Shown here: piece by piece, positions 7,292 to 55,018 of the stretch
Numbering within the stretch: position 1 is the stretch's first letter
Layout: every line of letters begins with the position of its first letter
From: a virus
Length of the DNA: 64,000 nucleotides
Virus record (IMG/VR): IMGVR_UViG_3300037189_012887
Coordinates: 62,001 to 126,000 of that record
Reading direction: 5' to 3' (one strand)
Notes under the pieces: generated by a model
What the model saw: only the letters and a program-made list of their open reading frames with translations
What the model was told of the DNA's origin: nothing
Databases searched by the model: none
Program-made: the position numbers and the translations under genes

Positions 7292-8143
7292 GTGATCATT
7301 CTAGACCTATCACAGGTGATGATTTCTAATCTTATGGTGCAGATAGGCAACCACACCAACACGAAGATCGAGGAGAACATGGTTCGACACATGGTGCTCA
7401 ACTCGATTCGAGCCTACCGCTCAAGGTTCTTCTCTGAGTTCGGCGAGATCGTGATTGCGTGTGACAACAAGAACTACTGGCGTCGTAAGCTGTTCCCCTA
7501 CTACAAGGCAAACCGCAAGAAGAACATCGAGAAGTCGGAACTCGACTGGGCCTCGATCTTTGAGTGCATGAACAAGATCCGCGCAGAGCTCAAGGAGTTC
7601 TTTCCCTACAAGGTGATCGACGTCGAGACAGCCGAGGCTGACGACATCATCGCGACCTTGACTAAGATGGTCATCGGTACCGGCGAGAAAGTACTGATCT
7701 TGTCTGGTGACAAGGACTTTATCCAGCTACATAAGTATCCTCACGTCACTCAGTACGATCCAGTGCGTAAGAAGAACATCACGAACGACAACCCAGAGCG
7801 CTACCTTGAAGAGCACATTCTCAAGGGTGACTCAGGCGACGGCATCCCAAACATCCTGTCATCAGATAACTGCTTCGTAGTCGGTGAGCGTCAGAAGCCC
7901 ATGACCCAGAAGAAGATCGACGCGTTCATTGAGCTGGGAATAATTGGTAAGTTCGACCACCCTAACTTCCGCAACTACGTCCGCAACGACACTCTCATCA
8001 ACCTCGATAGGATTCCTGAAGAAGTCTCAGTGAAGATCCAGGAATCATATATAGACCAGAAAGATAAAGATAGATCAAAGCTGTTTGACTACTTTATGAC
8101 TAATAAACTGAAGCTGCTTACAGAACACTTAGGGGAGTTCTAA
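7292..8143 (+). CDS. rnh: RNase H / 5'-3' exonuclease (FEN family)
   Basis: A 283-residue protein matching T4 RNase H, which removes RNA primers from Okazaki fragments. Acidic metal-site motifs are visible: MIILDLSQ at the start, TAEADDIIATL, ILSGDKDFIQL, and KGDSGDGIPN for the helix-hairpin-helix DNA clamp. The start is GTG at 7292 with GAGGA about eight bases upstream. It ends in a TAATG overlap with the next gene. Confidence 0.93.
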   Translation: MIILDLSQVMISNLMVQIGNHTNTKIEENMVRHMVLNSIRAYRSRFFSEFGEIVIACDNKNYWRRKLFPYYKANRKKNIEKSELDWASIFECMNKIRAELKEFFPYKVIDVETAEADDIIATLTKMVIGTGEKVLILSGDKDFIQLHKYPHVTQYDPVRKKNITNDNPERYLEEHILKGDSGDGIPNILSSDNCFVVGERQKPMTQKKIDAFIELGIIGKFDHPNFRNYVRNDTLINLDRIPEEVSVKIQESYIDQKDKDRSKLFDYFMTNKLKLLTEHLGEF

Positions 8144-8571
8144 TGAAACTAGGCATAGCCGAGATCTTACAGAAGATCGCAGGACTGAAGAATAAAGACG
8201 AGAAGATCAACGCTCTTAGACAGGTCGACTCGTTCGCTATCAGGACCGTCTTACAAGGAGCCTTTGATCCGCGAATCAAGTGGCTCTTACCTCCAGGCGA
8301 GGTACCTTATAAGAAGAGCGATCTTCCCGACCTTCAAAGTGCTCTCTACAATGAGATCAGGAAGCTGTACCTCTTCGTCGAAGGCGGCAACTCTAACCTC
8401 AAGCAGCTGAGACGAGAGACCCTCTTCATTCAACTTCTCGAGTCTGTATCTCCTGAAGACGCTGAGCTCCTTGCTGCTATCAAGGACAAGAAGCTTCCCT
8501 ACAAGGGAATCACTTCGGCAATCGTGAAAGAAGCATATCCTGGGCTTATCGATGAGCAAGACAAAGCATAA
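8143..8571 (+). CDS. Conserved T4-like phage protein (DUF6433 type)
   Basis: A 142-residue helical protein with the stretch KWLLPPGEVPYK and LYNEIRKLYLFVEGG that I recognise as a conserved family in marine T4-like phages (recalled as DUF6433). It always sits near replication genes, but function is unknown. It begins by TAATG overlap with RNase H and overlaps the next gene by 20 bases. Confidence 0.75.
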   Translation: MKLGIAEILQKIAGLKNKDEKINALRQVDSFAIRTVLQGAFDPRIKWLLPPGEVPYKKSDLPDLQSALYNEIRKLYLFVEGGNSNLKQLRRETLFIQLLESVSPEDAELLAAIKDKKLPYKGITSAIVKEAYPGLIDEQDKA

Positions 8572-13731: not shown

Positions 13732-14219
13732 AAGACAACTACTTTAGATTCCACTTTCCACACATCCACCTTCAGAGCCCCTTCGGCGACGACGGCTTTG
13801 CCATCATGGCCGAGAGGTTCGCCCGTTTCTTCGGCACCCCGATCTTCTTGATAATCCAGACAGCCTTAGTGCTTATCTGGATGGGACTCAACGTCTTTGG
13901 ATACACTGCCTTCGACGTCTATCCATTCATTCTTCTCAACCTAGCCTTCTCGACTCAGGCAGCATACGCTGCACCCCTGATCCTCTTGGCACAGACTCGA
14001 CAGGCTGACCGAGACAAGGCCCACGCCGAGGCAGACGCCCAGCACCGTGAAGACCTAGCCATGGCAGCTGCACAGCGGCAGCAGATCGCAGCAGAGCAGA
14101 CGGCCATCCTTCTCGAGATGCTTCACGAGAACAACAAGCTAGTCAAGAAGATCGAGAAGCTGACTAAAGAGATCCACACGATCACGACAAAGGGTGTTGA
14201 CAAAAATAGCAAGTCGTGA
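13728..14219 (+). CDS. DUF1003 membrane protein
   Basis: A 163-residue protein with two membrane segments (about 36-57, TPIFLIIQTALVLIWMGLNV; 65-86, YPFILLNLAFSTQAAYAAPL) followed by QTRQADRDKAHAEADAQH and a helical coil, the pattern of bacterial DUF1003 proteins. The family is common in bacteria, including alphaproteobacteria, and uncommon in phages as far as I recall. Function unknown. The tmRNA promoter lies inside its last 25 bases. Confidence 0.85.
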   Translation: MKDNYFRFHFPHIHLQSPFGDDGFAIMAERFARFFGTPIFLIIQTALVLIWMGLNVFGYTAFDVYPFILLNLAFSTQAAYAAPLILLAQTRQADRDKAHAEADAQHREDLAMAAAQRQQIAAEQTAILLEMLHENNKLVKKIEKLTKEIHTITTKGVDKNSKS

Positions 14220-14225
14220 TATAAA
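14197..14225 (+). promoter_or_regulatory. Sigma70-type promoter for the tmRNA gene
   Basis: TTGACA (14197-14202), 17-base spacer, TATAAA (14220-14225). It sits within the end of the DUF1003 gene. RNA would begin near 14232, right before the acceptor piece of the tmRNA. TATAAATA at 14220-14227 also matches the late promoter, so the tmRNA may be made early and late. Confidence 0.85.
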
Positions 14226-14231
14226 TAGTAT

Positions 14232-14525
14232 ATGCTGATGTCGATGACGAAAGCGAAATAGACATGCTGGACGCGGGGGCGGTACCCGCCGCCTCCACCA
14301 CAGATACATCGGTCGCCATAGTCGGAACAAATATGGTGTAATAGGTTTCTCCGAACATCCGATGTATCTTTGATGGGGGCGAAATAGGATCGACAGGTGT
14401 GTTAAAGGCGGACCGAGACAGAAGCATAAATAAGTTATCTGCAAACGATAATTCACTTCTTGAGATGCGCCTAGCGGCTTAATCTCTTGGGTATGGGTTC
14501 CACCTCGAAACAGAACGGGCCCACT
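14232..14525 (+). ncRNA. ssrA: Circularly permuted (two-piece) tmRNA precursor
   Basis: The acceptor piece comes first and ends with CGCCTCC-A-CCA at 14300. The coding piece begins GGGGGCG at 14375, and GGGGGCG pairs with CGCCTCC over seven base pairs (one G-U) to make the alanine-type acceptor stem. Just before the acceptor is a 5-bp stem with 7-base loop (14273-14289) placed as the T arm. The coding piece has GGATCGACAGG (D-loop analogue) and a tag frame from GCA 14441 to TAA 14482 encoding ANDNSLLEMRLAA. The final pseudoknot uses GTTC/GAAC near 14497-14516. Exact ends of mature pieces are not visible. Permuted ssrA is typical of alphaproteobacteria and some cyanobacteria. Confidence 0.9.
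14302..14369 (+). repeat. Inverted repeat closing the tmRNA intervening segment
   Basis: AGATACATCGG (14302-14312) pairs perfectly with CCGATGTATCT (14359-14369). It joins the 3' end of the acceptor piece to the 5' end of the coding piece and extends the acceptor stem in the precursor. The segment 14301-14374 would be excised during maturation by host RNases. Confidence 0.85.
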
Positions 14526-14550
14526 TCACACATCACACAGGAGAACTAAA

Positions 14551-14754
14551 ATGACTAAGACACCTTACGAGATCCGTCTCGACGTTCTGAACTTCGCACA
14601 GAATCAGCTGCAGGGAGAATACTTTGCTCAGATGGAGCGTATTCGCATGCAGAAAGATCTCAACTTACCCGTCGAATCAATTCCTAGCTATCCGACCAAG
14701 GATGACATCATCTTTCTAGCTGAAAGCCTTAAGAACTTCGTCGACACGAAGTAA
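14551..14754 (+). CDS. Conserved small T4-like phage protein
   Basis: A 67-residue protein (MTKTPYEIRLDVLNFAQNQL...) that I recognise as common in marine T4-like phages, usually near tRNA and gene 33. Mostly helical; function unknown. Good Shine-Dalgarno AGGAGA eight bases ahead of the start. Confidence 0.8.
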   Translation: MTKTPYEIRLDVLNFAQNQLQGEYFAQMERIRMQKDLNLPVESIPSYPTKDDIIFLAESLKNFVDTK

Positions 14755-14762
14755 GCTATAAC

Positions 14763-14839
14763 GGTCTCATAGCTCAGCTGTATAGAGCAGCCGCCTTCTA
14801 AGCGGCAGGTCGTTGGTTAGAGTCCAACTGAGATCACCA
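14763..14839 (+). tRNA. tRNA-Arg (anticodon UCU), encoded CCA, altered elbow pair
   Basis: Acceptor GGTCTCA/TGAGATC (one G-U), discriminator A, CCA encoded. D stem GCTC/GAGC, anticodon arm GCCGC-CTTCTAA-GCGGC, T arm GTTGG-TTAGAGT-CCAAC. The T loop has A at position 56 in place of the near-universal C, and the D loop has U at 19 in place of G, so a U-A pair can replace the G19-C56 tertiary pair. It reads AGA/AGG, which this phage uses often. Confidence 0.92.
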
Positions 14840-14855
14840 ATCAAGGAGTGGGCTA

Positions 14856-15047
14856 TTGGATATGAAGATCGTACCCGTTTGGGTTGTCTACCTCGTAGCG
14901 GTCGTAGTTCTGATAGCTCACGACTTCCTTATCAAAGACTACATCTTTGGATTCTTGGCTTTCATGGCTTTTGCCGGAGCCTTAGTTATGAAGAACACCT
15001 ATCAGTTGGTGTTTATGGATAAGACGGAAGATGATGCTGACCAATGA
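14856..15047 (+). CDS. Small membrane protein
   Basis: A 63-residue protein with two hydrophobic segments (VWVVYLVAVVVLIAHDFLI; YIFGFLAFMAFAGALVM) and an acidic tail. TTG 14856 is the better start because AAGGAG stands seven bases before it; the in-frame ATG at 14862 would be 13 bases away. Family unknown. Overlaps gene 33 by four bases. Confidence 0.7.
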   Translation: MDMKIVPVWVVYLVAVVVLIAHDFLIKDYIFGFLAFMAFAGALVMKNTYQLVFMDKTEDDADQ

Positions 15048-15280
15048 ATATTTTTGGAATCGTTAACTCAAACTCGACCTTCTCGAGTGAGATTGAAAAG
15101 CTAGTAAGCACTAAGAACATCGACTACATCGACGCCATCGTTCTCTGGTGCGAGCGCAACAACCTAGAAGTCGAGTACGCCGCGGGCATGATCAAGAAGG
15201 ATCCCGTGCTCAAGTCTAAGGTTCAGGTCGAGGCCGAGAACATCAACGTCTTGAAGAAGGGCGCGAGACTGCCGATATGA
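15044..15280 (+). CDS. 33: Late-transcription coactivator gp33
   Basis: A 78-residue protein matching the T4 gp33 family of marine phages: YIDAIVLWCERNNLEVEYAAGMIKK, then AENINVLKKGARLPI at the C terminus. In T4, gp33 bridges RNA polymerase and the gp45 clamp and, with sigma gp55, activates late promoters. The many NATAAATA boxes upstream of late genes in this window fit this role. ATGA overlaps with both neighbours. Confidence 0.85.
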   Translation: MNIFGIVNSNSTFSSEIEKLVSTKNIDYIDAIVLWCERNNLEVEYAAGMIKKDPVLKSKVQVEAENINVLKKGARLPI

Positions 15281-15870
15281 TGGTGAGGAAGAGCGTGTCA
15301 CCCTTTGAATGCTACCAAGACTACCTTGCACTAAAGCAGCACTTCAGCCGCCCAGACTACGACTACGTAAAGTACAACGGCAAGGTCAACGCCAGACTAT
15401 CAAGCTTCGAGGGACGGCGAGACAAGATCTTCTTTGCCAAGCTCTCAAAGCATCCAGATCCTCACAACTTCCTCCTGTCCAATATGGTCAAGAACCCCAA
15501 GGTCTGGATCAAGGACATCGCGTACAACGAGTCAGCCCATCGTGTATACGAGGACTGGATGAAGAAGAACCAGTCCCTCACGTACCTCTTTAAGAACGAG
15601 GTCGGTAAGCTCAGGGACGACTTCGACAGCAACTTTAAGGTGCTCGACAACGAGCATCCCTACGCCCTCAAGCTGTACATGCAGGGTGAGATATCTCTTG
15701 AGACACTCGTCATCTTAGTAAACTTGACTAAGTGCCTAAAGCACTGGAGCAAGAAGATGGCTGACGATCCGGTCTGGGAAGAGATCAAGCTTCTAATCGT
15801 CAAGTATAATGCGTTCTTGAAATATGACGAGGAGAAGATGAAGAACATCGTAGTTGACAAGTATCAATGA
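15277..15870 (+). CDS. 59: Replicative helicase loader gp59
   Basis: A 197-residue protein matching T4 gp59, which loads gp41 helicase on forks and contacts gp32. The N terminus VSPFECYQDYLALKQHFS and the following DYDYVKYNGKVNA are characteristic. Start ATG 15277 overlaps the gp33 stop (ATGATGG); a second ATG at 15280 is equally placed. The gp32 promoter sits in its last codons. Confidence 0.9.
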   Translation: MMVRKSVSPFECYQDYLALKQHFSRPDYDYVKYNGKVNARLSSFEGRRDKIFFAKLSKHPDPHNFLLSNMVKNPKVWIKDIAYNESAHRVYEDWMKKNQSLTYLFKNEVGKLRDDFDSNFKVLDNEHPYALKLYMQGEISLETLVILVNLTKCLKHWSKKMADDPVWEEIKLLIVKYNAFLKYDEEKMKNIVVDKYQ

Positions 15871-15951: not shown

Positions 15952-16875
15952 ATGGACTTTTCACAGCTTAAGAAGCAGTCGGGTAAATCATCTCTTGAGA
16001 AGATCGCGTCAGATCTCAGCAAGATGAATTCCAATCAACAGGAGCGTAAGTCCGACGACCGCTTCTGGTCCCCTACGGTTGACAAGGCCGGCAACGGCTA
16101 CGCAGTCATCCGCTTCCTCCCATCGCCTGCTGGCGAGGACATGCCGTTCGTCCGAGTATGGGACCACGGCTTCCAGGGCCCAACCGGTACTTGGTACATC
16201 GAGAACTCCCTCACGACAATCGGCAAGAACGATCCGGTCTCCGAGCACAACTCGAAGCTCTGGAACTCCGGCCTTGAGTCTGACAAGGAGATCGCCCGTA
16301 AGCAGAAGCGTCGCCTTCACTTCGTGAGCAACGTCTACATCGTCAACGATCCGGGTAACCCCGAGAACGAGGGCAAGGTGTTCCTCTACAAGTACGGCAA
16401 GAAGATCTTTGACAAGCTCAACGAGCTCATGAACCCACAGTTCCAGGACGAAGAGGCGATCAACCCATTCGACTTCTGGGCCGGTGCCAACTTCAAGTTG
16501 AAGATCCGTCAGGTCGAAGGCTACCGCAACTACGACAAGTCTGAGTTCGCAAAGCCTAGCCCTCTGCTGGACGACGACAAGGAACTTGAGAACGTATGGA
16601 AGAAGGAGCACTCTCTTCAGGAGTTCCTCTCACCTTCCAACTTCAAGACCTACGAGGAGCTCTCTGCGAAGCTCGCCAAGGTACTCGGCACTGACGGCTC
16701 GTCTTCGGGCGCCCGTGCAAACGCTAAGGCTAAGGCAGCCGACGAGGACGACGCTCCATGGGCCGAGGAGACCGAGGCACCTAAGGCTCGCTCGACTCCA
16801 GCTCCGCGTCAGGCTGCTACCGACGATGACGAGGACGATGGACTCGACTTCTTTAAGAGTCTTGCAAATCGCTAA
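15952..16875 (+). CDS. 32: Single-stranded DNA-binding protein gp32
   Basis: A 307-residue protein with the gp32 layout: basic LKKQSGKSSLEKI N-terminal region for cooperativity, OB-fold core (YAVIRFLPSP, WDHGF, WYIENSLTT, ENEGKVFLYKYGKKIFDK), and an Ala/Asp/Glu-rich acidic C terminus ending LDFFKSLANR. There is no cysteine anywhere, so the zinc site of T4 gp32 is absent, as recalled for cyanophage gp32. It coats ssDNA and recruits gp59. Followed by a strong terminator. Confidence 0.96.
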   Translation: MDFSQLKKQSGKSSLEKIASDLSKMNSNQQERKSDDRFWSPTVDKAGNGYAVIRFLPSPAGEDMPFVRVWDHGFQGPTGTWYIENSLTTIGKNDPVSEHNSKLWNSGLESDKEIARKQKRRLHFVSNVYIVNDPGNPENEGKVFLYKYGKKIFDKLNELMNPQFQDEEAINPFDFWAGANFKLKIRQVEGYRNYDKSEFAKPSPLLDDDKELENVWKKEHSLQEFLSPSNFKTYEELSAKLAKVLGTDGSSSGARANAKAKAADEDDAPWAEETEAPKARSTPAPRQAATDDDEDDGLDFFKSLANR

Positions 16876-54295: not shown

Positions 54296-55018
54296 ATGGA
54301 AAGTTACGGTTTCATTTATCTTTGGTATGATAGAAAACATAAAAGATATTATGTCGGATGTCATTGGGGAAGAGAAGATGATGGGTATGTATGTAGCTCA
54401 TACTGGATGATGCAAGCTTATAAACGTAGACCTGAAGACTTCAAACGTCGTATGCTAAAAACAAACATCTTAGACAGAACATGTCTTTTAGATGAAGAGT
54501 ATAAGTTTCTGTCTCTTATAAAAAAAGAAGAGTTAGGTAAAAAATACTATAACATACAAAATAATCACTTCGGTCATTGGTCAAATGATCCAAATAATAG
54601 AGACAACGCTATAGAAAAGATGAGACAAAAGCTCATCGGCAAGAGTCTATCAGAAGAACACAAAAAGAAGATCAGTAAAAGTAATAAAGGAAAGAAGAAA
54701 GCTCCATTTACTGAAGATCATCGAAAGAATATAAGTATATCAGCTATTGGAAGAGTTCCAACGGAAGAGACACTTAAGAAAAGATCTATAGCTATGAAAG
54801 GTGAAAATAACCCTAATTGGGGTAAGAAGTTTACTGAAGAGCATAGACATAAGTTGTCTATAGCTAGAAGAAAAAGAGTCATCAGCGAAGAGACCAAACA
54901 AAAGACCAGAGAATCTATGAAGAAAGTAGTTCCTAGACGTGGTCATAAACTGACTGAAGAACACAAGGCCAAGATTAGTCTTGGAATGAAGAAGAACAAA
55001 GAAAGTCTGAGTAACTAA
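54296..55018 (+). CDS. GIY-YIG homing endonuclease with NUMOD3 repeats
   Basis: A 240-residue protein. GFIYLWYDRKHKRYYVGCHWG is the GIY-YIG start (residues 5-25), SSYWMMQAY and an acidic LLDEEYKFL follow. The C-terminal half has about five NUMOD3 DNA-binding motifs (GKSLSEEHKKKISKSNKGKK, PFTEDHRKNIS, KKFTEEHRHKLSIAR, HKLTEEHKAKIS). Codons are strongly AT-rich compared with all neighbours, so it is a recent arrival. It sits between two related fibre genes. Confidence 0.92.
   Translation: MESYGFIYLWYDRKHKRYYVGCHWGREDDGYVCSSYWMMQAYKRRPEDFKRRMLKTNILDRTCLLDEEYKFLSLIKKEELGKKYYNIQNNHFGHWSNDPNNRDNAIEKMRQKLIGKSLSEEHKKKISKSNKGKKKAPFTEDHRKNISISAIGRVPTEETLKKRSIAMKGENNPNWGKKFTEEHRHKLSIARRKRVISEETKQKTRESMKKVVPRRGHKLTEEHKAKISLGMKKNKESLSN

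Follow-up and report, generated by a model that had tools for sequence, protein, structure and literature searches.

A permuted two-piece tmRNA gene with a putative composite promoter in a T4-like phage

The locus described here raises the question of whether a tmRNA-like sequence in a viral genome is a gene that the phage maintains and uses, and how it might be expressed. It is located in a stretch of 64,000 nucleotides, here called the window, which corresponds to positions 62001-126000 of the 150,648 bp virus record IMGVR_UViG_3300037189_012887; coordinates without a locus name refer to the window, and all features of the locus lie on its plus strand. A first-pass annotation, made from the sequence alone, had described the locus as a phage-borne permuted two-piece tmRNA and had named a search with the alpha-tmRNA covariance model as a check. 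This search gave a significant match of the Rfam model RF01849 (alpha_tmRNA) to positions 14193-14525 with 113.6 bits and an E-value of 3.3e-30 (gathering cut-off 50). The assignment was further borne out by RF04321 (tmRNA_permuted; 14240-14482, 94.2 bits, E-value 6e-17, cut-off 47) and by ARAGORN, which called a permuted tmRNA at 14207-14573 with the tag ANDNSLLEMRLAA. The score of ~114 bits under the alpha model compares with 235-316 bits for bacterial copies.

The anatomy of the gene follows the permuted order, with the acceptor part 5′ of the coding part and the two ends pairing across an intervening sequence. The acceptor piece (14233-14300), whose 5′-end was placed according to the promoter position, comprises the P2 5′ side, the T arm (14273-14289, loop GGCGGTA), the acceptor 3′ strand CGCCTCC (14290-14296), A73 (14297) and CCA (14298-14300). 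It is followed by an intervening sequence of 74 nt (14301-14374), which is predicted to be removed in processing and which is closed by a perfect 11-bp hairpin (AGATACATCGG at 14302-14312 and CCGATGTATCT at 14359-14369). The coding piece (14375-14525) contains the acceptor 5′ strand GGGGGCG (14375-14381), the D-like region GGATCGAC, the P2 3′ side, the tag reading frame and a 3′ structured region. The two acceptor strands form 7 of 7 pairs, the third of which is G3-U70, and together with A73 and CCA this completes the alanine identity set. The minimum-energy fold of the single strand likewise gives the acceptor stem, the T arm and the hairpin. According to ARAGORN, the tag frame (14441-14482) runs from the resume codon GCA to GCT and the stop codon TAA and encodes ANDNSLLEMRLAA; it is complete, with a degron-like end. 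The order of the pieces, the 7-bp end pairing, the 11-bp hairpin and the tag frame ending in LAA had all been read correctly in the first-pass annotation, and its positions were exact on re-reading.

Its view that a phage copy is rare, however, was wrong. A count of 2021 found 53 two-piece tmRNAs (Melnitz and 52 others) in 18,146 phage genomes (PMC9004378), a tmRNA database of 2025 holds 79 bacteriophage sequences (PMC11915505), and at least 119 stretches of IMG/VR matched a degenerate pattern scan. Phage two-piece tmRNAs are already known and fairly common, and the window holds one more of them.

The virus itself is, as judged from its gene content, a T4-like myovirus distant from the cultured ones. 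This assignment is based on the genes for a gp33-like late-transcription coactivator (15044-15280, PF16805), the gp59 helicase loader (15277-15870) and the gp32 single-stranded DNA-binding protein (15952-16875) downstream of the tmRNA, on gp6, whose best match is Caulobacter phage Cr30 (39%), and on searches with Cr30 queries, which found gp55, gp45, gp47, the major capsid protein, the terminase, the tail sheath and RegA. The T4-type genes identified in the virus thus include gp32, gp33, gp59, gp55, gp45, gp23 and terminase. An alphaproteobacterial host is likely. Between the tmRNA and the gp33-gp59-gp32 genes, which follow it on the same strand as in the Melnitz-type ssrA locus of T4-like phages, there are a 67-aa ORF without family match directly 3′ of the tmRNA (14551-14754) and a tRNA-Arg(TCT) gene (14763-14839, ARAGORN and Rfam). 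The virus record yielded no SmpB gene, and the tmRNA therefore presumably depends on host SmpB. A set of 80 viral loci was collected around gp32 as the anchor gene. In these kin 28 tmRNAs were found, each of them on the same strand as gp32 and 0.9-4.3 kb upstream of that gene. Among the 30 kin loci with at least 4.9 kb of upstream sequence, 19 carried a tmRNA and 11 had none that ARAGORN could find, so that the gene is dispensable in this virus group.

Upstream of the acceptor piece, the T4-type late promoter motif TATAAATA (14220-14227) doubles as a sigma-70-like -10 box (TATAAA), and 17 bp before it TTGACA (14197-14202), a candidate sigma-70 -35 box, lies inside the end of a DUF1003 ORF. The window contains six copies of TATAAATA against 0.97 expected, all on the plus strand, and several of the others stand before baseplate, head-tail and tail genes. 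This position before late genes, together with the gp33 gene adjoining the tmRNA region and the gp55 and gp45 homologues elsewhere in the virus, points to a promoter of the T4 late type. Of the 17 TATAAATA sites of the virus, the tmRNA site alone has a perfect -35 box at 17 bp; at the remaining 16 no -35 box has fewer than two mismatches. In the kin, TATAAATA was found 45-53 nt before the T arm, exactly in 14 of 23 copies (0.27 expected from shuffles) and with at most one mismatch in 21 of 23, as compared to 0 of 9 non-T4 phages and 1 of 97 bacterial tmRNAs. TTGACA with at most one mismatch was present exactly 17 bp upstream of the TATAAATA position in 33 of 60 phage copies, while other spacings tried gave 0-3. 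The composite TTGACA-N17-TATAAATA precedes at least 30 phage tmRNAs, that of Melnitz among them, and none of 95 bacterial tmRNAs.

A sole sigma-70 reading of this element was rejected, since at baseplate, tail and head-tail genes TATAAATA occurs without a -35 box, and since it persists in kin without TTGACA; a purely late reading is weakened by TTGACA at exactly 17 bp. We read the element as a composite promoter that host sigma-70 as well as the phage late sigma would recognize; its early use is uncertain because the last T of the sigma-70 -10 box is missing from TATAAA. Neither the composite promoter nor its recurrence was found in the literature searched, in which subscription journals were thinly covered. 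The authors of the Melnitz study discuss only an early promoter for the tmRNA gene (PMC9004378), and the composite promoter qualifies the published proposal that this copy acts only early. We tentatively raise, as a serious possibility, that in a wide clade of T4-like phages a dedicated two-piece tmRNA is expressed under a promoter that host sigma-70 and the phage late sigma can both read. If true, the clade would have its own trans-translation RNA throughout infection, with -LAA-tuned tags unlike those of the host, and this would amount to a phage-specific quality-control programme and not to a stray tRNA-like gene. As a separate observation on TATAAATA, three homing-endonuclease-like ORFs (phrog_314) are each located directly 3′ of this motif: at 54296-55018 in the window, at 7680-8300 on the minus strand of L218 and at 15629-16201 in L222.

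In order to assess the conservation of the RNA, 106 distinct phage copies were parsed, for which CCA and at least 6 of 7 acceptor pairs were demanded. G3-U70, A73 and CCA were kept in 106 of 106 copies, CCA being required by the parser. Acceptor pair 5 was G-C in 65 copies, C-G in 19, A-U in 17 and U-A in 4, and pair 6 was U-A in 57 and C-G in 47; like these, pairs 1 and 2 of the T arm alternate between G-C, C-G, A-U and U-A. Due to the fact that the parser required pairs, the always-paired figures arise partly by construction, which does not hold for the double-sided changes. The compensatory changes across the split acceptor stem, together with the constant G3-U70 and A73, therefore indicate that the phage tmRNA is a maintained RNA.

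The tmRNAs closest to the window copy are phage copies (L149 with 94% and L132/L087 with 90.5% identity), and the best bacterial tmRNA of the pattern sample reaches 65%. A search of 289 alphaproteobacterial genomes gave matches that were confined to the start of the coding piece and covered at most its first ~39 nt. Recent capture from a host was therefore rejected for the bacteria sampled; the window tmRNA had no match in plasmids either. The tmRNA genes look mosaic: the window copy has its intervening sequence in common with L132 and its tag type with L149; L138 and L143 agree in the tag half but not in the acceptor stem and T loop, and L134 and L142 form a further such pair. Recombination inside the tmRNA gene is likely.

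Taken as a whole, the window gene is probably a functional, phage-maintained two-piece tmRNA of the alpha type that is transcribed early and late and that rescues ribosomes in dependence on the host. A single precursor would be transcribed from TTGACA-N17-TATAAATA, early by the host sigma-70 RNA polymerase and late from the same TATAAATA by the gp55/gp33/gp45 machinery. Host tRNA-processing enzymes would excise the hairpin-closed intervening sequence, and the acceptor RNA and the coding RNA would stay joined by the acceptor stem and P2. Charging is expected by the host alanyl-tRNA synthetase via G3-U70 and A73, and host SmpB would bring the charged tmRNA to ribosomes stuck on broken mRNAs. There the ribosome would resume at GCA, append ANDNSLLEMRLAA and be freed, and the -LAA end would route the tagged product to host ClpXP or a similar protease. 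The phage would thus supply the RNA alone, with processing, charging and delivery left to the host. The likely benefit is the recycling of ribosomes and amino acids while host and phage mRNAs are cut in infection. A phage-owned ribosome-rescue RNA suggests that stalled ribosomes limit infection, as would be expected if host mRNA is degraded or RNA is cleaved by defence nucleases, and the recurring locus, the covarying stem and the composite promoter point to a maintained, testable function.

Ribosome rescue and the steering of proteolysis are both plausible roles for a phage tmRNA, and it has been proposed that host proteins are selectively tagged and degraded (PMC9004378). Reprogrammed proteolysis could accordingly be the main job, with the phage tag competing with the host tag and unfinished (host) proteins being sent to a phage-chosen protease, by which amino acids are freed. 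The window tag indeed has no identical counterpart among the bacterial tags sampled, and the 98 distinct phage tags lean to -LAA (83 of 98, with -AA ends in 96 and -VAA in one) as compared to 24 of 49 -LAA and 17 of 49 -VAA in bacterial tags, although the bacterial sample, which was defined by a T-loop pattern, contains many Rhizobiales, and the counts ignore kinship. The scarcity of -VAA in phage tags possibly reflects either selection for the degron or sampling. Moreover, tags shift fast among close kin, the window copy and L132 having the same intervening sequence and different tags, and a specific tag message therefore seems unlikely. As the main job, reprogrammed proteolysis is regarded as unlikely.

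Still less probable is that the phage carries the gene as a mere passenger, which was acquired from an alphaproteobacterial host and is in slow decay. Its patchy presence (19 of the 30 long kin loci) and a model score that is low beside bacterial copies would fit such a fate, but the compensatory changes in the split stem, the open tag frames, the constant place and strand and the phage-type promoter speak against it. Highly improbable, finally, is a decoy that sequesters SmpB or ribosomes and thereby blocks trans-translation in the host, for which the phage's want of an SmpB gene and the inhibitor precedent of the tag-less tmRNA-like RNA of mycobacteriophage DS6A (PMC11915505, PMC4131195) could be cited, since the DS6A RNA comprises little beyond the tRNA-like domain, whereas here nearly all of the 98 distinct phage tags retain the reading frame, the resume codon and the C-terminal degron.

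Several known systems come close to the window copy. Alphaproteobacterial tmRNAs (RF01849; Caulobacter ssrA) share with it the permutation, the split acceptor stem with G3-U70, the GGCRGTA-type T loop and an ANDN...LAA tag; they differ from phage copies in a shorter intervening sequence (median 32 vs 70 nt) and from the window copy in the absence of the composite TATAAATA promoter. Mycobacteriophage tmRNAs (Bxz1 type, DS6A) are likewise phage-borne ssrA and are not known to be two-piece. Alpha-type two-piece tmRNAs also occur in the large non-T4 alphaproteobacterial phages DSS3P8, vB_RpoS-V10, MD18, DSS3_MAL1, RcXuper, vB_EliS-L02 and Cp1R7A-A1, which represent other lineages with other gene neighbours and whose copies show ~61-64% identity to that of the window. 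In four roseophages (L122, L123, L128 and L131) a GOLLD RNA (RF02032) was seen upstream of the two-piece tmRNA, at a distance of a few hundred bases, its match overlapping tRNA-Arg in L122 and L128. Among T4-like phages, a permuted tmRNA is present in Melnitz, Stenotrophomonas phage DLP_6 and Rhizobium phage RHph_I1_18, and none was found in Cr30 and phiM12. The DLP_6 copy (L339, positions 102838-103059 of the record) scored 136.8 bits and carries the tag ANDDSFAPMAIAA. DLP_6 infects a gammaproteobacterium whose own tmRNA is expected to be one-piece, and the type of a phage tmRNA therefore does not tell the host. Melnitz (Methylophilales phage, MZ577097) resembles the virus studied here as a T4-like myovirus with a permuted tmRNA near a gp33-type coactivator gene and with the TTGACA-N17-TATAAATA promoter; it differs in its tag, ANDNYVPVDYALAA, and in an intervening sequence of 142 nt with a candidate small ORF. 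A glutamine riboswitch, which was reported next to ssrA for Melnitz and described as common but not defining (PMC9004378), was not found around the tmRNA of the window (14100-14900).

Regarding the intervening sequence of the window copy, no Rfam riboswitch family matched positions 14100-14900 at E-values up to 5, and a riboswitch was rejected on this ground. It contains an inner hairpin, CGCCATA/TATGGTG, and a pseudoknot TCGGA/TCCGA across this hairpin was unsupported: one of the inner pairs is disrupted in L132, the intervening sequences of other kin are unrelated, and the folding z-score was -0.72. In L155 (1177-1490, identical to L343) the intervening sequence has shrunk to a few bases (CATCTCCACAACGACGGGGATG) with no full CCA, while the sister L157 is normal; this is either an assembly fault or an altered form of the gene. 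The intervening sequences of L133, for which no Rfam match was obtained, and L208 have an element of ~45 nt, GCATTAGCTGCACCAGAAATGNCGYATGCNGGGGAATGTAAGTCG, in common, although these phage tmRNAs are otherwise different. Small ORFs of 38-58 codons are located in the intervening sequences of L201 (tmRNA 2175-2610; no Pfam match above cut-off), Melnitz (L340, 1564-1705) and L173 (tmRNA 272-732; spotted by eye). Those of L201 and Melnitz have a Shine-Dalgarno-like site (2 of 111 copies vs 0.25 expected from shuffles), and the region separating the two RNA pieces may carry extra genes.
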